IMG/VR virus record: IMGVR_UViG_3300017788_000119 | Location: 1 to 30,068 of that record | Origin: a virus | Direction: 5' to 3' (one strand) | DNA: 30,068 bases | In this document: positions 8,711 to 21,927 of the stretch, in pieces | How positions within the stretch are numbered: position 1 is the stretch's first letter | Layout: every line of letters starts with the position of its first letter | Program-made: the position numbers and the translations under genes | The notes under the pieces: model-generated | What the model was told of the DNA's origin: nothing | The model's database searches: none | Seen by the model: the letters and a program-made list of their open reading frames with translations, nothing else

Positions 8711-10123
8711 TTACATGAGGTTCTTGACTTGTACTCTTCTGTAGTAACGGTTCGAGTTAGTCTTAAGTCTACCGAGTCCTTGTGCATCGGCAGCTGAACC
8801 TTCAGCGAATGGGTTGGCAACCATACCATATCTGGTTTTGAAGCCAATCTTTGGCTGGAAGGTGTCTTGTCCAACGGCACGAACCATTTGGAGAGGAACA
8901 TATGGGCAGTAGAAGAGTCCTGCGTCATAAGGATTAGTACCCTTATAACCGATGACATAATACTGTCCACCAGCAGCATTAGGGTTAACACCACCCGAAT
9001 ATGGATCGATGTAAACCTTGTACTTACCGTTGATAACACCAGCGAAGGTGTTACCAGTGTCATCAACCTGAAGGTTTGCATTAAGTGCAGGAGTGTAATC
9101 AAGAACACCTGCCATGGTTAGAGCTGAAGCAACGTCTGATGAACAAACGATGGTGTTGCCCTTTCCACGACGAGTTCTGATTGCAATTGCGTTAGCATCT
9201 CTCTCAAGTTGGAAAAGAAGTCCCTTGAACTTCTCAACGCTCCAACGTCCGTTTGAATCAACGTCTAAGTCGAAGATACCAGCAGTTGCGGTATTGTTCT
9301 GAGCACCAGCTTCAGCAATGTTGTAGATGGTACGAACAACTTCTCTGTTGATTTCAGCAAGAATCTCGGTTGAGAGAATGTTTGCTAACTCAGCTTCTGC
9401 ATCAAGTCCATGAATAGCCTTGAGATCTTGTGCGAGTTCTAATGAATACTCGGCTTTGAGTGCTCTTGACTTTGCAGCAACGGTGACTTTCTCGATTGAG
9501 AATGCCATCTCTGCGAAAGCATTACCAGATGCATCGCCAAGTGCTTCAGCAGATCCAGTTGCCATTGCCTGTCCTACATTGTAGGTTCCAGGTGAAGCAT
9601 CGTTGAGAACACCAGGATTCGAACCTGATTGAGCAGCAGTGGTTGCAATACCAACCGAAGCCTGTGCAGTATAATCACTTGCAGAAAGTGAACCAGCAGC
9701 ATTCTGTCCAGAGAATCTGGAATCTGGTTCGTTGAAGAATGCTTCAGTTCCGCTGTTGTTGGTGTAACGAGTTCTCATTGCGAAGATGAGTCCCGTTGGG
9801 CCGTTCATTGGTTGAACACCGCAAATATCATATGCGATGAGTTGAGGCATTGAACGTCTGATCAATGAGATCAGAACTGGATCGAAACCGGCTACAGGGC
9901 CTGCAGCAGCTGCGGTTCCGTAGGTTCCACCACCGAAACCACCAGTTCCAGCCGACATGGTTGGGCCAGCCTCTGAGATGAAACCACGCTCTTCACGGAG
10001 GAAGCGCTCTTGGTTCTCTAAAAGTTGAGCGGTAACAGCTCTTCTGTGAGGATCTTTGATGTGATCTAATCCCTCACAATTGAGAAGTGGAGCCCACTTC
10101 TCTTGTAAGTTTTCGTTAAACAT
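8711..10123 (-). CDS. 23: Major capsid protein gp23 precursor
   Basis: This is the HK97-fold major head protein of T4-like phages. It has 470 residues, shorter than T4 (about 521) as usual in cyanophages. The N-terminal helical scaffold-binding segment has the family pattern (WAPLLNCEGLDHIKDPHRRAV at about 10-30). A likely gp21 cleavage site is the I-S-E at 49-51 before AGPTMSAG, which would remove about 51 residues. The segment SLIRRSMPQLIAYDICGVQPMNGPTGLIFAMRTRY (about 86-120) is diagnostic of gp23. A strong AAGGAG ribosome site lies nine bases before the ATG, fitting high expression, and a strong terminator follows. No gp24 vertex gene is seen, as is typical of cyanophages. Confidence 0.98.
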   Translation of the reverse strand: MFNENLQEKWAPLLNCEGLDHIKDPHRRAVTAQLLENQERFLREERGFISEAGPTMSAGTGGFGGGTYGTAAAAGPVAGFDPVLISLIRRSMPQLIAYDICGVQPMNGPTGLIFAMRTRYTNNSGTEAFFNEPDSRFSGQNAAGSLSASDYTAQASVGIATTAAQSGSNPGVLNDASPGTYNVGQAMATGSAEALGDASGNAFAEMAFSIEKVTVAAKSRALKAEYSLELAQDLKAIHGLDAEAELANILSTEILAEINREVVRTIYNIAEAGAQNNTATAGIFDLDVDSNGRWSVEKFKGLLFQLERDANAIAIRTRRGKGNTIVCSSDVASALTMAGVLDYTPALNANLQVDDTGNTFAGVINGKYKVYIDPYSGGVNPNAAGGQYYVIGYKGTNPYDAGLFYCPYVPLQMVRAVGQDTFQPKIGFKTRYGMVANPFAEGSAADAQGLGRLKTNSNRYYRRVQVKNLM

Positions 10124-11395: not shown

Positions 11396-12040
11396 TTAAA
11401 TATTTTCCAGATATTTATTGAACAACTTCAATAATCTCTCTTCACGCACTCTTTTATCAAGAGTAGGAGTGAGTGAATTTAGACTATTTAGTGTCTTTTC
11501 GGCTAAAATGCCGTTGTTCCAAACCCACTCTTTACCTTCCATAATTCCCTGAACAAAAGCGTCAGGAGCAGAAGGATCTGCAACAATATCTGCTGCAGTT
11601 GATAACATAAAATCATCGGAGACAACTTTGACTCCACCTTGTTCAACTAATGAACCCACACCTCTAGAGGAAACGCCAAGTTTGACACCTTCATCCAAAA
11701 GATTCTTTGCAATCTTACCCATTGGAGTCTCAAGGATTTGAGCTTTTCCAATGAAGTTCTTACCCTCTGGGAGTAGTGAAACAATCTTATGAGAAACTCG
11801 ATCAAGATTAACTGAAGGGCCATCTGGATGCCCAAGTTCTCCAAGAGCTCTTCCACACTTTACATACTGTTCATTGTATCTTTTAACTTCACGATCCAAA
11901 GTTTCATAACGATACATTCTACCGTTACGATTTTTTAAATCAGCTTGAAGAAAGATACCTTCAATATAAAGTCGTTTTTTGCCACCAACTTCTTCGGTAA
12001 GAATCTTGATGTCTTCGATCTGTTCTGTGATGAGTTTCAT
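11396..12040 (-). CDS. 21: Prohead core protein protease gp21
   Basis: gp21 is the prohead protease that cleaves gp22, gp23 and other head proteins after hydrophobic-x-Glu. I start it at the ATG at 12040 (MKLITEQIED), giving 214 residues, almost the T4 length of 212. A longer frame begins at a TTG inside the upstream gene and is less likely. The family signature is visible: FLQADLKNRNGRMY at 30-43, GELGHPDGPSVNLDRVSH with His71 and His84 as candidate catalytic histidines, and GVSSRG at 122-127 holding the likely nucleophilic serine (124 or 125), as in herpes-assemblin-type proteases. The start lies five bases after the small upstream gene. Confidence 0.95.
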   Translation of the reverse strand: MKLITEQIEDIKILTEEVGGKKRLYIEGIFLQADLKNRNGRMYRYETLDREVKRYNEQYVKCGRALGELGHPDGPSVNLDRVSHKIVSLLPEGKNFIGKAQILETPMGKIAKNLLDEGVKLGVSSRGVGSLVEQGGVKVVSDDFMLSTAADIVADPSAPDAFVQGIMEGKEWVWNNGILAEKTLNSLNSLTPTLDKRVREERLLKLFNKYLENI

Positions 12041-12045
12041 GGTTT

Positions 12046-12312
12046 TTAATTCGTAAGTCCTACTTTTGATGCAACGATTACTGGAGTTGTCCAAAGAACA
12101 TCAGTAGAAAGTTTTTCTAAAAACTCAACCGTATTTGCTGGCATACTAAAATAAACTGTTGATGCAGCACCAACAATCGTGGAAATTCCTACCGTTGCAA
12201 CACCACTAGTATTGTTATGAAGTCTCACGCAAGTAGCACTGCCAATACTACTGGCTGTGCCAGCAGTTGTTGGAGTTGCAGCTTCAGTTGCAATAATCTT
12301 CGTTCTTTGCAT
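12046..12312 (-). CDS. Small beta-rich putative structural protein
   Basis: This is an 88-residue protein between the prohead-core candidate and gp21. It is Thr/Ala/Val/Ser-rich with alternating hydrophobics (CVRLHNNTSGVATVGIST, then TVYFSMPANTVEFLEK) and no helices of note, so it is likely a small beta sandwich. It resembles the 92-residue protein at 19304-19582 in size and in the order of short motifs, suggesting the two are paralogs. Its ATG shares one base with the upstream stop (TAATG). Position in the head operon suggests a head decoration or prohead component, but that is inference. Confidence 0.85.
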   Translation of the reverse strand: MQRTKIIATEAATPTTAGTASSIGSATCVRLHNNTSGVATVGISTIVGAASTVYFSMPANTVEFLEKLSTDVLWTTPVIVASKVGLTN

Positions 12313-17097: not shown

Positions 17098-17328
17098 TTA
17101 CCAGTCAGGATATTCCCATCCAACACTTTTTTGTGAATTTTTTCTTGACTCAATAATTCTTTTAATTGTACAAGATTTGCATTCATAAGAATATGATGAT
17201 GGGTGAATTCCCTTATTTTTCCTAGTAGTATAAAAATCCGTCAATAAATCTTTTTCCAGATTACAAACCCTACAAATTCTAGTTGAAAAGAATAAATGTT
17301 CCAATGAAAAATTCTTTTCTATGTTCAT
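17098..17328 (-). CDS. Small zinc-ribbon protein downstream of gp17
   Basis: This 76-residue basic protein has two CxxC pairs, CRVC near 19-22 and CKSC near 50-53, separated by FYTTRKNKG and aromatic residues. This is the zinc-binding pattern often found at the N-terminus of HNH or endonuclease VII-type proteins (C-x2-C, then FY, then C-K-x-C), but the catalytic HNH part is absent, so no nuclease activity is implied. Its ATG shares one base with the gp17 stop (TAATG), so translation should be coupled to the terminase. It may be a DNA-binding helper of packaging, or a remnant of a homing endonuclease. I do not recognise a named family. Confidence 0.82.
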   Translation of the reverse strand: MNIEKNFSLEHLFFSTRICRVCNLEKDLLTDFYTTRKNKGIHPSSYSYECKSCTIKRIIESRKNSQKSVGWEYPDW

Positions 17329-18983
17329 TACTTATACTCCCACATGTAAGCTCGATCACCATACTCATCTAGCTTCCATACATCACCAGAGTTGTCTACA
17401 AAGGTATTTTCATGATCATCTAAACCATCTAAAATAAATCCAAAGGGAGCCATGTCTTGTTCAATCTGGTTCTTTTGTTCCTCATAGATGCGTTTACGAA
17501 CATCATTCTCAGTCATCTCCTTAAAGTAAGGTTGAACAACTAACCAAGAGAAGATCACAAGACACATTGATAAGTCATCATTTGCACCTTCTTCAGCTTC
17601 AAATGATTGATTCTTTTGAATAAAAGTTGTCAGTTCCGAAATGATATCATAATCATTGAACATTAACTTGTCATCTTCTACCAAAGTCTTGAGGTTTGAA
17701 CATCCAATCTTTTTGACTGTCTTTGACATCTTCAATCCAAGTTGAGACTTATTGCCAGAGAATCCTTGCCCAACGATCTGCCCAGCTCTACCTCGCATGG
17801 CGCACATTAAGATGTGATCATACTCAAGATCAAAATGTAGGATATTTGCAACTTGTTCCCCAATGTCGTTGATTTCAACCAACACATAAGCTTTATTATA
17901 TGCCTTTGCAACATCTTCAATGATGTTTGGGAACAACATTGGTTTGATTTGATTGTTTCGATATTTACCAACTACTCTCCAAGGAAAACTTGTAATATCA
18001 AAAATGACGAAAGCTGAGTAGTCACTTTCAACTCCTCTTGCAACGTCAACTGTCATAATATAGTTATGATCTTCGATTGGTTCTTGATAGATATCCAATC
18101 CTTTATTTGATTGAATTGGATCATCAAAAACCATTGACTTGAGTTTTGATGCAGAAATCAAAGTATCAGAAGATCCAAGGAAGTCACACTCAAATTCCTG
18201 TTGGAACTGTTGAGGTGAAGTGTTTGCAATCGTTTGTTCCTTCCATTTTGCGTCTCTACCAGGAACTTCACTCCAATGAACCTCTGTTGGAATATATTCG
18301 TTTCTACTCCTCTCGGCGTCATGCCAGAGGCGGTAGAAGTGATTCATACCTTTAGGGGTAGATACAATAATAACCTTTGTTGTTTTACCAGATGAAATGG
18401 TAGGATAAACTGAACTGAAGAAATCGTCAGCGATATGATTTGGAATGAACGCAAATTCGTCAAGGAAGATGATATTGAATGACATACCACGAACAGCAGA
18501 TGCTGATGTAGATGCTGCAATAATCTTTGATCCATTCTCAAGTTCTAAAGATGCCTTGTTCCAAACCATGACACCTTGTTGCATCCACTTAGGTAGATTC
18601 TCATAAGCCAATTGAAGTCTTCCCAAAAGATCTTTTGCAGTTGAAGCTTTGTTTGCAAGAATACCTACATTCACGTTAGCATTAAAAACAACATAATGCA
18701 ATAGATAAGATACACAAGTCGTTGACTTACCTGACTGACGAGGCATCTTACAGATATTGAATCTGTTATTATGGAAATTATTAATTAATTTTTGTTGAAA
18801 TGGATAAAGGTTAAAAGGAACTAAACCTTCATCCAGAGAAACAATCTTGATATAATTTTTAGCAAAGTATACTGGATCATCCTTACACTTTAAAAATTCT
18901 TTAATTTGTTCCTCAGTAAATTCAATCGGAACATTTGCTTTCTTAAGCTGAGGGTTGCCCAAATAATGTTGATCATTACTCAT
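17328..18983 (-). CDS. 17: Terminase large subunit gp17
   Basis: gp17 is the ATP-driven packaging motor and headful nuclease. The 551 residues compare with about 610 in T4. Walker A RQSGKST lies at 82-88, Walker B IIFLDE at 171-176 and the coupling motif VSTP near 207-210. The RNase H-like nuclease has its acidic residues at D313 (DVARG), E370 (VEIND) and D469 or D470 (ANDDLS). An adaptor-binding N-terminus precedes the ATPase. Its start lies inside the end of the upstream zinc-ribbon gene (8-base overlap), and its stop overlaps the downstream zinc-ribbon start. All catalytic residues are present. Confidence 0.98.
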   Translation of the reverse strand: MSNDQHYLGNPQLKKANVPIEFTEEQIKEFLKCKDDPVYFAKNYIKIVSLDEGLVPFNLYPFQQKLINNFHNNRFNICKMPRQSGKSTTCVSYLLHYVVFNANVNVGILANKASTAKDLLGRLQLAYENLPKWMQQGVMVWNKASLELENGSKIIAASTSASAVRGMSFNIIFLDEFAFIPNHIADDFFSSVYPTISSGKTTKVIIVSTPKGMNHFYRLWHDAERSRNEYIPTEVHWSEVPGRDAKWKEQTIANTSPQQFQQEFECDFLGSSDTLISASKLKSMVFDDPIQSNKGLDIYQEPIEDHNYIMTVDVARGVESDYSAFVIFDITSFPWRVVGKYRNNQIKPMLFPNIIEDVAKAYNKAYVLVEINDIGEQVANILHFDLEYDHILMCAMRGRAGQIVGQGFSGNKSQLGLKMSKTVKKIGCSNLKTLVEDDKLMFNDYDIISELTTFIQKNQSFEAEEGANDDLSMCLVIFSWLVVQPYFKEMTENDVRKRIYEEQKNQIEQDMAPFGFILDGLDDHENTFVDNSGDVWKLDEYGDRAYMWEYK

Positions 18984-19209
18984 ACATTCTCTTTAAATAA
19001 TTATCCATTTGATTCATATTATTTAATCTTGTTTGCCAACCATTTCCATCTGTGGTTCCTTTGGCTGGGTTGATGCAAGTATCATCTTCAAATTTGTCAC
19101 ATACTAAACTTGCAAGTTCTGTTTCATTACCCTGTTTATGTGTTCCTACCCAGTAATGCTGATCCCCGATCCAAGTAGCACCACATTTAGGGCAAACTTT
19201 TGTGTTCAT
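18976..19209 (-). CDS. Small zinc-ribbon protein upstream of gp17
   Basis: This is a 77-residue protein if started at the ATG at 19209 (MNTKVCPKCGATW), or 81 residues from the ATG at 19221; neither has a good ribosome site. Cys6 and Cys9 form a CPKC knuckle, followed by HYW, then Cys37 and Cys45 in SLVCDKFEDDTCINP, making a plausible four-cysteine zinc site. Such a protein is usual just before gp17 in T4-like cyanophages, as I recall, but has no assigned function. It overlaps gp17 by eight bases, so the two are translationally coupled. It is not the small terminase, since gp16 is recognisable at 21517-21927. Confidence 0.85.
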   Translation of the reverse strand: MNTKVCPKCGATWIGDQHYWVGTHKQGNETELASLVCDKFEDDTCINPAKGTTDGNGWQTRLNNMNQMDNYLKRMYE

Positions 19210-19231
19210 AAGACTTACCATAAGACGATAA

Positions 19232-19303: not shown

Positions 19304-19582
19304 TTATCCTTGATACACTACAGAAGTTGCGTAAATATCATTTCCACTATCGACAGATATAATATTAGTTCTTTCTTTTTTGATTAATAAAAATGATTCG
19401 GACGGCAGATAAACTGTTCCAACAGTGACTCCAGCACCAGTTTTTTCAATTATATAGTGATTTCCAGATCCAGTATGTTGAATTAAAACATACTGTGCTC
19501 CAAGTCCATTAATATCTGAAACTGTCGTTCCTATTCCTGATAATTGTTGAGAGTTTCCTAAAATTTTAATAGGTCCGTACAT
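19304..19582 (-). CDS. Small beta-rich putative structural protein (92 residues)
   Basis: This 92-residue protein has alternating hydrophobic and polar residues and many Gly/Thr/Ser, so it is likely an all-beta domain. Its motif order is IKILGN, YVLIQHTGSG, VGTVYLPSESFLLIKK and DIYATSVV. This parallels the 88-residue protein at 12046-12312 (KIIATE, CVRLHNNTSG, STVYFSMPANTVEFLEK, VIVASKV), suggesting a shared small-domain family. The start shares one base with the stop of the 635-residue gene. A hairpin follows the stop. Role unknown; a virion decoration or assembly protein is the natural guess from context. Confidence 0.8.
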   Translation of the reverse strand: MYGPIKILGNSQQLSGIGTTVSDINGLGAQYVLIQHTGSGNHYIIEKTGAGVTVGTVYLPSESFLLIKKERTNIISVDSGNDIYATSVVYQG

Positions 19583-21489
19583 TAGTTACAATTCCAACGA
19601 CGAAGTGCTTTGTTGATTCTTGAATCTGGGTCTCTTGCAGTTTTTGCTGATGTATTTTTTGCTTTGTGTCCTTTCATACGTGAACAGAATGATTTACGTC
19701 TTGATGCTCTTTTACCAGTTGGATTTTTTTCAGTCACTGCGGTTTGAAGTTTTGAACCTGGATTCTCACGGCGATAAGCATCCACTGTTGATTGACTTAA
19801 TCCATCAACTCCATCTTTACGATTTTTTTCTTGCCAATCTTCACCGATCACTCCGATATTGAGTAAATAATTCTTTCTTCTTTTTTCTTTATCTGGATCT
19901 AAAATAATTGCAAGAGCTTGTTCTGCAAAATTTTCTTTTACTGGTTTTGCATGAGGTGCTGATTGCCCTCTACGATTTGTATTAGTTCTATCAGAACCTC
20001 TCCAACCTTGAACTTGCGATGCAGTTGCCTCACCTTTTCTTGGCCCTCTGCGTTTTAAAACTGTAATTTTTGGGCCCTTTGGTTCTTCTGGTTTTGACTT
20101 AGGCTTAGTTCTTTCTGAAGCAGGCCTTAAAGTTTTACCACCACCTCTATCTTCTTTGTATCTTCCAAGAACTGCTTCATCAATTTCAACCTCTTCAGCA
20201 GCTAGAAGAGTTGGTTTGGTTGGATCAATTCTTGAAGGCATATAAGCATTTAACAATGCACCTGGATATACCTTATGAATTGCATCCTCTACTTCTTTTC
20301 TGGATGGAATTGTAGGAGTCGAGAAGAAGATTTGAAGTCTGTAAGTTGATCCGTGCCAAGTTAAAATGATGGTATAAGTTCTTCCATACTGTTGAATCTT
20401 ATCAATGTTTTCTCCTAAAGGATTTTTAGGCCCTTCTAATCCTGTTTTATCTACGGAGAATCTTGAAGGTTTTGGTTTTGGTTTTGTTGCACTTGATGGA
20501 ATAGTGTCTCCCACCTTATAAGATTTTCCTTTAACTCCTCCAGAATATGCTCCAGTTTGACTTGCACTGGACATCACATAATTTTGTTCTTTTACACAAG
20601 ATCCTGGAGCAAACTTTTTAGTTCCTTTTTTTCTCTTATAACCATCCCAACACGCTTCAGAAACTTTTTCATCACTTTGCATATAATCTGCTGCAGTATC
20701 AATGAAATCTGCTGCTCTTGTAATCTTAGATTGAACCCATGCAGGAATCTGTTGATTTGGTTTTTTTATAAGTTTTCTCAGAATATTGATTGATCTTTCA
20801 ATCTGATCAAACTCAACATTTGACATGTATCCTTCTTCATCCTTCTTTTTACCAGAAGCAACCTCTTTATGATCTTCTGGGAAAAACTCTTCAGACTTAT
20901 TGCCCCAGTTCTTAGCACCTTTTTGACGACACTTAACAAGTGCTCCAGAGGCATAAGCACTGGGCCAAACACTATATCTGGCTTTTACTTTATGATAGCA
21001 AGCATCTTTCTTACCACTACCCCTACCTTTCTTGTCTTCTTCTGACATGAATTCTTCTTTTTTCATTTTTTTAGTTGGAGAATCTGTTGAAACATAAGTT
21101 GGTTTTGCAGCTCCTGACTTTGATTGTTGCCCAGGATCTGCTTCTTTTTTTCTTCTCGATGCAGAAAGTCTTTCTGCCTTTGTCATGCTTGATCTTTTTG
21201 AAGAAGATACACACTTTGGTGTTCCCTCCCCTGGTTCATCACTTGCACAGGTTCCACCAGTTACTACGTTTACCCAACCAGGCTTTCCATCCTTAGATCT
21301 CGATCCCTTGAACCACTGATGAAGATTACCCTCAGAAACCTTTTCTTCAGGTGACTTATAAGGTTTGACTGAGCCCTTTGGATCCCTTTCTTCCTTCATA
21401 GAACAATCACTCATTCCATGCTTAGGGCACATTTTACCCTTAGCAGTTTTATTGCATTTAGCTGGCGTACACCCACAATGCTCTAACAT
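19582..21489 (-). CDS. Multi-module basic, cysteine-patterned protein between gp16 and gp17
   Basis: This 635-residue Lys/Arg-rich protein has no single recognised function. It looks like a chain of short modules joined by Lys/Pro/Ser linkers: a Cys/His cluster (1-30, CGCTPAKC then CPKHGMSDC); a GNLHQWFKGSRSKDGKPGW block with two cysteines (53-137); a CYHKVKARYSVWPSAYASG block (163-197), which I recall as DUF5872-like; a helical segment with KKPNQQIPAWVQSKI (225-275); a CWDGYKRKKGTKKFAPGSC block (280-300); a small alpha/beta domain (365-425); and a C-terminal block with GLSQSTVDAYRRENPGSKL, SFCSRMKG and TARDPDSRINKALRRWNC (562-635). Such modules recur in marine phages and algal viruses without known role. 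It lies between the two terminase subunits, after a late-promoter-like motif. A nucleic-acid-associated virion or packaging role is inferred. Confidence 0.85.
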   Translation of the reverse strand: MLEHCGCTPAKCNKTAKGKMCPKHGMSDCSMKEERDPKGSVKPYKSPEEKVSEGNLHQWFKGSRSKDGKPGWVNVVTGGTCASDEPGEGTPKCVSSSKRSSMTKAERLSASRRKKEADPGQQSKSGAAKPTYVSTDSPTKKMKKEEFMSEEDKKGRGSGKKDACYHKVKARYSVWPSAYASGALVKCRQKGAKNWGNKSEEFFPEDHKEVASGKKKDEEGYMSNVEFDQIERSINILRKLIKKPNQQIPAWVQSKITRAADFIDTAADYMQSDEKVSEACWDGYKRKKGTKKFAPGSCVKEQNYVMSSASQTGAYSGGVKGKSYKVGDTIPSSATKPKPKPSRFSVDKTGLEGPKNPLGENIDKIQQYGRTYTIILTWHGSTYRLQIFFSTPTIPSRKEVEDAIHKVYPGALLNAYMPSRIDPTKPTLLAAEEVEIDEAVLGRYKEDRGGGKTLRPASERTKPKSKPEEPKGPKITVLKRRGPRKGEATASQVQGWRGSDRTNTNRRGQSAPHAKPVKENFAEQALAIILDPDKEKRRKNYLLNIGVIGEDWQEKNRKDGVDGLSQSTVDAYRRENPGSKLQTAVTEKNPTGKRASRRKSFCSRMKGHKAKNTSAKTARDPDSRINKALRRWNCN

Positions 21490-21513: not shown

Positions 21514-21521
21514 TATTTATG
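21514..21521 (-). promoter_or_regulatory. Late-promoter-like motif before the 635-residue gene
   Basis: The minus strand reads CATAAATA, seven of eight to TATAAATA, overlapping the end of gp16 and 25 bases before the ATG at 21489. Confidence 0.55.
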
Positions 21522-21927
21522 ATTTCTTGTCAGTTGTGTTGCTCTGCTTGATCATCTTAAGAAGATCAGCGGTAGAACCAACATACAATGCGTTTGTAAC
21601 ATTGTTGGGCCCTTGATACTTGTTATCAAGATCTTTCATATTCTTATGGAGATTCATCAACTTGTCTGTTACATCTCCAAGGTTTTTAATCAACTGCCCT
21701 GCAACTTCATAAGCCCTTGGATGTTGAGAACTATCTGCAACTTCAAGAATCCCATCAACAGCCATTTGCCCTTTTTCGATTAGAGAGTAAAGTTGCCCCC
21801 TTGTGTATTCGTAGTCGGACTGTTGTTGATTTGTTGGTTTTGTGAGTTCTGATTTGTCAACTTTTGACTCTACAATTGAAGTCTCCACATTCAACGCTTC
21901 TCCAATTTTATCAAATGATTTTGACAT
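21517..21927 (-). CDS. 16: Terminase small subunit gp16
   Basis: gp16 recognises DNA and regulates gp17 during packaging. The 136 residues compare with about 164 in T4. The opening MSKSFDKIGEALNVE and the central YTRGQLYSLIEKGQMAVDGILEVADSSQHPRAYEVAGQLIKNLGD (about 41-86) are the pattern of cyanophage gp16 proteins: a helical oligomerisation core flanked by charged tails. The C-terminal VTNALYVGSTADLLKMIK (about 112-129) probably contacts gp17. It starts three bases after the gp15 stop, with a GGAGAG ribosome site in the gp15 end. Unlike T4, gp16 and gp17 are not adjacent; three genes lie between them. Confidence 0.92.
   Translation of the reverse strand: MSKSFDKIGEALNVETSIVESKVDKSELTKPTNQQQSDYEYTRGQLYSLIEKGQMAVDGILEVADSSQHPRAYEVAGQLIKNLGDVTDKLMNLHKNMKDLDNKYQGPNNVTNALYVGSTADLLKMIKQSNTTDKKS

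Follow-up and report, generated by a model that had tools for sequence, protein, structure and literature searches.

What kind of protein does a T4-like cyanophage-type virus encode between its two terminase genes when the product is a chain of short modules, and what becomes of it in the particle? In descriptions of T4-like cyanophages, the gap between gp16 (small terminase) and gp17 (large terminase) figures as a hot spot of hypothetical genes. The stretch analysed here (the window) is a 30,068-base IMG/VR virus record, IMGVR_UViG_3300017788_000119, from such a virus, with T4-like structural genes that are all on the minus strand. Its gp16-gp17 gap holds an open reading frame (ORF) for a 635-amino-acid (aa) protein (19582..21489, minus strand, open from ATG). 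From its sequence, this protein is predicted to be a head-internal polyprotein, and on balance we favour the reading that the prohead protease gp21 would cut it into small, mostly basic proteins that are packaged with the DNA.

Module profiles (hidden Markov models, HMMs) were built from relatives and then run on the 635-aa protein, where seven modules were found, all on the minus strand. From the N-terminus, these are N (CGCTPAKCNKTAKGKMCPKHGMSDC, five Cys; 21397..21477, residues 12-31, HMM E=5e-14), W (NLHQWFKGS...CASD...PKCV..., two Cys, basic; 21070..21327, residues 55-140, HMM E=6e-44), CYHK (KDACYHKVKARYSVWPSAYASGALVKCRQKGAKNWGN, two Cys; 20899..21015, residues 159-197, HMM E=2e-30), HEL (predicted helical, no Cys; 20668..20829, residues 221-274, HMM E=3e-28), CW (CWDGYKRKKGTKKFAPGSCVKE, two Cys; 20590..20652, residues 280-292, HMM E=1.5e-5), AB (a beta-beta-alpha-beta domain, no Cys; 20206..20394, residues 366-428, HMM E=3e-27), and the C-terminal DUF6321 (PF19846, basic, two Cys; 19585..19839, residues 558-634, HMM E=2e-40, Pfam E=1e-12). 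The protein is 20% K+R and 12% D+E, with a net charge of +51, and its 13 Cys (residues 5, 7, 12, 21, 29, 81, 93, 164, 187, 280, 298, 602, and 634) all lie in or directly at five modules (N, W, CYHK, CW, and DUF6321), with none in HEL or AB. Because seven modules that recur elsewhere give significant profile scores and the Cys are placed in this manner, the modular architecture is beyond chance. An initial annotation of the window had described a basic chain of at least six Cys/Lys modules; the number and the basic character stand, and paired Cys are limited to five modules.

Searches of the whole protein against PDB sequences and with PADLOC gave no match, and across Pfam, PHROGs, and PADLOC, DUF6321 was the sole Pfam domain, with no enzymatic, effector, or defence-related family. 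DUF6321 was modelled by AlphaFold with five predicted helices (predicted local distance difference test, pLDDT, of 89; predicted template modelling score, pTM, of 0.71), and its Cys 602 and 634 are conserved in 90% or more of the alignment; a fold search of DUF6321 against the PDB gave no match. The AB model (pLDDT 74 overall, approximately 90 in the core) had weak, non-significant Foldseek matches (E about 0.24), first to YkzG, a small RNA-polymerase-binding protein, and to a chain of the T7 Gp2-RNA polymerase complex, a likeness that is kept as a lead only. The CYHK core of two relatives (L068:5670-8267 and L071:5496-8267) is interrupted by a 279-aa intein-like element, Hint-like by a weak Pfam match, which starts with Cys and ends in TGN, with S following.

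The 635-aa protein certainly belongs to cyanophage cluster T4-GC119 (phrog_3477, E=2e-93; phrog_727, E=4e-90), whose members are the same gene in the same gp16-adjacent slot, with the same C-terminal DUF6321 and modules. The T4-GC119, phrog_727, and phrog_3477 clusters reportedly go back to Sullivan et al. in 2010. Within the records examined, the family is called hypothetical or structural (the latter in S-B43 and S-E7), and no analysis of its modules, protease sites, or targeting was found. By tblastn, 480 phage records, nearly all from Synechococcus or Prochlorococcus phages, match the protein, and in dozens of IMG/VR loci the gene recurs with a wide variety of module orders and combinations and with CKPG, WSDK, YCPC, GNTF, and DUF5661 (D5661) modules that the window protein lacks. 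Given these matches, the combination of many modules in one protein, to which the initial annotation had drawn attention, holds as a recurrent property of marine-phage families but is not special to the window virus. DUF6321 is the constant element, found at one place per record (536 records) and C-terminal in 216 of 235.

T4 gp21 cuts after hydrophobic-x-Glu (PMC9026906; with T4 sequences). The window encodes a gp21 (11396..12094, minus strand; Pfam Peptidase_S77 E=1.4e-33), the proposed processing enzyme, and the predicted maturation site of the major capsid protein gp23, ISE^A (FISE^A; 9971..9979, minus strand), was used as the local gp21 yardstick; the capsid site is conserved in relatives as [IL][TNS]E^A, and T4 gp23 has FLTE^A. 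Sites of this type are predicted on the minus strand of the 635-aa gene directly before W (VSE^G after residue 53, 21331..21339), before CYHK (MSE^E after residue 150, 21040..21048), before HEL (FPE^D after residue 205, 20875..20883), directly before CW (VSE^A after residue 278, 20656..20664), before AB (LGE^N after residue 360, 20410..20418), behind AB (IDE^A after residue 438, 20176..20184), and before DUF6321 (IGE^D after residue 550, 19840..19848).

Motif statistics were computed on 107 nonredundant multi-module relatives, with each linker shuffled as a control. The linkers contain 1030 hydrophobic-x-Glu motifs vs 636+/-19 after shuffling, and the hydrophobic preference is found at position -2 only (0.353 vs 0.18-0.26); the motif frequency is 3.9% of residues in linkers vs 0.77% inside modules. 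Mutually dissimilar linkers have 166 motifs vs 100+/-8 expected, a count reached in 0/2000 shuffles. A motif lies at most 14 aa upstream of the module start for 96% of W, 95% of CYHK, 93% of CW, 98% of AB, and 79% of DUF6321 modules, as well as 13/13 CKPG and 11/13 WSDK modules, against a background of 33% of all 18-aa windows, and for all of these module types reversed, shifted, D-based, and K-based control motifs score below hydrophobic-x-Glu. The preferred residues (N, D, S, or T at P2 and A first at P1') match the capsid site. The -2 peak recurs in scaffold gp22, which is a known substrate of gp21, and no such specific -2 peak is found in neck, tail, and terminase proteins. This marked excess of motifs ahead of most module types bears out the suggestion of the initial annotation that the protein might carry gp21-type sites.

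The position of the gene was compared across phages. DUF6321 genes lie between gp16 and gp17 in most T4-like relatives, as in the window, and adjacency to gp16 within the T4-like head/packaging cluster is seen in the window, S-SM1, Syn19, and P-SSM2, the last with the gene between gp15 and gp16. In one clade (L025, L031, L038, and L053), the gene occupies the gap from gp20 (portal) to gp21 (protease), where T4 has genes 67 and 68. In podoviruses, DUF6321 is found in the scaffold/capsid region. A stand-alone DUF6321 gene is right behind the major capsid gene in the T7-like cyanophage P-SCSP1k and the pelagiphage HTVC104P; in S-CBP4 the gene has a head-assembly gene on one side and the major head gene on the other, and in Venkman it is immediately upstream of the terminase. 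The neighbours in Planktothrix phage Pra-JY27 are largely unannotated. Since the genes are mostly in head or packaging regions, a head function of DUF6321 is favoured. A bridge between terminase and portal, as the initial annotation had considered, finds nothing in its favour: other phages have the gene in the portal-protease gap or at the capsid genes instead.

Of the DUF6321 proteins, 137/149 in T4-like loci have two or more modules vs 0/35 in T7-like loci, whose DUF6321 genes stand alone, in a sample drawn by DUF6321 and CYHK similarity whose proportions are not population estimates. T7-like phages are not known to have a gp21-type protease, so module chains go together with a prohead protease and single modules with its absence. 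In other phage lineages, three loci (L112:5668-8095, L094:1604-4210, and L131:5121-7655) have one ORF with DUF6321/CW modules, NUDIX, and DUF2213, the last above cut-off in L112 and L094; we take DUF2213 to be a head-maturation protease/scaffold type of protein. A single-sequence scan also placed DUF6321 on 29 contigs from bacterial or archaeal genome records (L287-L315), many of them metagenome-assembled, which are probably viral contigs or prophages.

Relatives of the protein have been detected in virions. S-SCSM1_29 (W, CYHK, CW, AB, and DUF6321) is annotated as "virion protein" in a phage whose CsCl-purified particles yielded 45 proteins by mass spectrometry (PMC9602691), and S-CREM2 gp137 (ORF137; AB and DUF6321), encoded between the terminase genes, gave four unique virion peptides, with eight for its neighbour gp136 (ORF136) (PMC10665884). 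In the Syn19 annotation, "similar to Synechococcus phage S-SM1 protein" is noted for gp3, gp13-gp15, gp18-gp21, gp23, a YadA protein, GC403, and GC119, and for none of gp16, gp17, gp22, and the replication genes within the stretches examined. Because S-SM1 has 41 structural proteins by virion proteomics (PMC3037559), these notes suggest that GC119 is among them. Virion association is thus seen by mass spectrometry for relatives in S-SCSM1 and S-CREM2 and indirectly in S-SM1, and DUF6321 genes are mostly in head/packaging regions, with the exception of Microcystis phage LMM01; the case that the initial annotation had named as refuting, a protein absent from virions with modules found mainly in cytosolic early proteins, does not hold.

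The genes of the window are in the order gp13, gp14, gp15, gp16 (21517..21927, minus strand; phrog_445 E=1e-51), the 635-aa ORF, two small ORFs, and gp17 (17328..18983, minus strand; Terminase_6N and Terminase_6C), followed by an endonuclease VII-like ORF, gp18, gp19, gp20, gp21, gp22, and gp23. The small ORFs of this cassette encode a 92-aa protein (19304..19582, minus strand; phrog_18571 E=6e-10) and a second product ahead of gp17 (18976-19221). In several relatives (L052, L064, and L074), the slot of the 92-aa ORF holds a stand-alone AB gene bearing a capsid-targeting sequence (CTS). T4 IPII and IPIII start MKTYQEFIAE^A, and the first 10 residues suffice for encapsidation, with residues 4 and 7 serving targeting and residues 8 and 10 processing (PMC9026906). 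Stand-alone AB proteins beside the DUF6321 gene, approximately 105-116 aa in length, have a T4-CTS-like N-terminus, MKSF[QK]QF[LIM]SE^S. Each of four positions is kept in 48 of 49 aligned starts (F or Y at residue 4, F at residue 7, a hydrophobic residue at 8, and E at 10), and the strict CTS pattern is present in 39/50 AB proteins vs 2/2358 other plus-strand ORFs, with no gp proteins. Examples with MKSFQQFLSE^S are L001:6983-7318, L002:6350-6682, and L284:27312-27629 (complement), from approximately 50 relatives. CTS-like starts are also found in two small DUF6321 proteins, S-SZBM1_192 (MKTFKQYITEA) and that of L119 (MKTYSQFIVEH), and in the virion-detected S-CREM2 gp136 (MQTFSMFFSED). A literature search on capsid targeting in cyanophages found the T4 review alone.

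Elsewhere in the window, an 88-aa ORF between gp20 and gp21 (12046-12312) is weakly similar (21%, E=0.06) to S-SZBM1_195 (L284:30378-30641, 87 aa), which adjoins gp16 and has the third highest exponentially modified protein abundance index (emPAI) in the S-SZBM1 virion proteome. S-SZBM1_195 is a candidate small capsid decoration protein.

We propose that the polyprotein is made late and then built into the prohead core, with the conserved DUF6321 domain probably aiding its incorporation. During head maturation, the serine protease gp21 would cut after hydrophobic-x-Glu just before most modules, and the freed small modules, mostly basic and several with paired Cys, would stay in the capsid with the DNA in the manner of T4 internal proteins and probably enter the host with it. 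Judged from composition, a likely task of the modules would be charge neutralisation or DNA association; a second, by analogy with T4 internal proteins and Alt, would be action in the host after ejection (PMC3012670, PMC5512222). The initial annotation had also considered coating of the DNA by a zinc- or disulfide-stabilised protein; the observations that bear on this are the paired Cys and the net charge of +51, and such a role may apply. The 635-aa protein likely works like the T4 internal proteins.

Several observations weigh against this proposal. The window protein, which starts MLEHCGCTPAKC, has no N-terminal CTS ending in hydrophobic-x-Glu, and we therefore do not claim that it is a T4 internal protein. 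Cleavage by gp21 at the predicted sites is read from motif placement, and the motif counts are not fully independent, as the relatives share ancestry. Interior linkers show no significant enrichment (73 vs 61+/-7), which limits the claim to module starts, and part of the enrichment could be inherited with each module; no clear motif signal precedes the starts of GNTF, YCPC, D5661, and N modules. The stand-alone DUF6321 gene of LMM01 (L248:6001-6264) is surrounded by replication genes and lies on the strand opposite to all of its neighbours. In S-SZBM1, neither the 165-aa DUF6321 protein nor the AB protein figures in the list of 30 detected virion proteins (PMC9146016); that list contains scaffold and protease, so virion detection is no proof of retention as a mature product.

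Could the modules instead be a delivered effector array, resembling polyvalent proteins, in which individual modules or the fused domains beside them would target host defence, transcription, or repair immediately upon ejection, with DNA packing as a by-product? Cassette neighbours in four relatives (L284:28253-30376, complement; L396:3333-4040; L397:1713-4022; L398:3378-4064) carry a CTS-like motif (TYREFIAE^G, YKDFIDLCE^G, FSDFLNE^G, and YKDFINLVE^G) followed by a domain resembling S-adenosylmethionine (SAM) lyase, PF23780, which is above cut-off in one, just below in two, and has no Pfam match in L397; they are possibly packaged anti-restriction factors. The shuffling of modules suggests fast adaptive change, and T4 IPI and Alt are precedents (PMC3012670, PMC5512222). 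The window protein, however, has no enzymatic or defence-related family, and DUF6321 forms a core that is conserved and single-copy, unlike what is expected of an effector that changes fast. An effector array is accordingly a serious but unlikely explanation. T4-GC403 (L004:5202-5738 and L396:2798-3331) was considered as the SAM-lyase-like protein and rejected, as it is DUF7243 and unrelated; it is beta-rich-looking, adjoins gp16, has the S-SM1 note in common with GC119, and is likely another virion protein of the cassette.

A second alternative, which we regard as quite unlikely, is a component of the prohead core or scaffold like T4 gp22, gp67, and gp68 that helps to build the core, is shredded by gp21, and mostly leaves, so that the modules would do nothing once maturation is complete. 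One clade encodes its DUF6321 protein exactly in the slot of T4 genes 67 and 68, scaffold remnants are also detected in virions, and the scaffold gp22, a known gp21 substrate, has the same -2 peak. The motif density in gp22 is 8.5 per 100 aa, whereas gp21 motifs are depleted inside the modules, which therefore look protected and not shredded. Scaffold proteins are also usually acidic, in contrast to the charge of +51 of the 635-aa protein, and profile comparison gave no homology to gp68: DUF6321 was considered as a T4 gp68 homologue from a GLS...KRR resemblance and gene position, and this was rejected at an hhalign probability of 0.4%. An uncut structural or packaging accessory, such as a head-tail or portal-terminase component in which hydrophobic-x-Glu is an N-terminal cap or linker motif travelling with the modules, would suit a gene placed between the terminases in most relatives and an enrichment confined to the stretch before modules, but it is distinctly improbable: several module types unrelated to each other have the motif ahead of them with differing flanks, the residues favoured at P2 and P1' are those of the capsid cleavage site, and the position of the gene is not tied to the terminases.

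The head-internal polyprotein may be taken one step further, as a tentative possibility that we hold at somewhat less than an even prospect: it would be the phage counterpart of a viral polyprotein, in which the prohead protease frees DNA-associated or effector mini-proteins in the forming capsid for delivery to the cyanobacterium, while the CTS system loads further proteins of the gp16-gp17 cassette. If the reading as a head-internal polyprotein is right, part of the gp16-gp17 gap is a cargo cassette of CTS-tagged proteins and a protease-cut polyprotein, present in hundreds of sequenced Synechococcus and Prochlorococcus phages. The abundant Pfam family DUF6321 would gain a function, T4-type internal-protein targeting would extend to cyanophages, and a new way to load many small proteins into a virus particle is suggested.

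Among the closest known systems are T4 IPI-IPIII and Alt, which are core-targeted, processed by gp21, and ejected, and which are likewise basic with hydrophobic-x-Glu sites and, like relatives of the window protein, virion-associated; their 10-residue capsid-targeting pattern is common to the AB proteins of the cassette. Each T4 internal protein stands alone and has one N-terminal site, whereas the window protein strings many modules together, most of them preceded by a predicted site, and lacks a CTS. Among the T4 core proteins, gp67 and gp68 occupy the portal-gp21 gap, as the DUF6321 gene does in one clade, and gp68 has a basic C-terminal region, as does the DUF6321 protein, whereas gp67 is highly acidic, unlike the window protein. 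Polyvalent proteins are multidomain, often packaged with phage DNA, and protease-processed (Iyer et al. 2017, PMC5512222). The window protein resembles them in its multidomain layout, but they have recognisable enzyme domains and often built-in metallopeptidases, whereas its small modules have no recognised function and would depend on the prohead protease of the phage. In giant phages (phiKZ, SPN3US, and 201phi2-1), the prohead protease cuts ejection proteins after a short Glu-ending motif, with several sites possible per propeptide; there, long propeptides are removed from single proteins, whereas here whole small modules would be the products.

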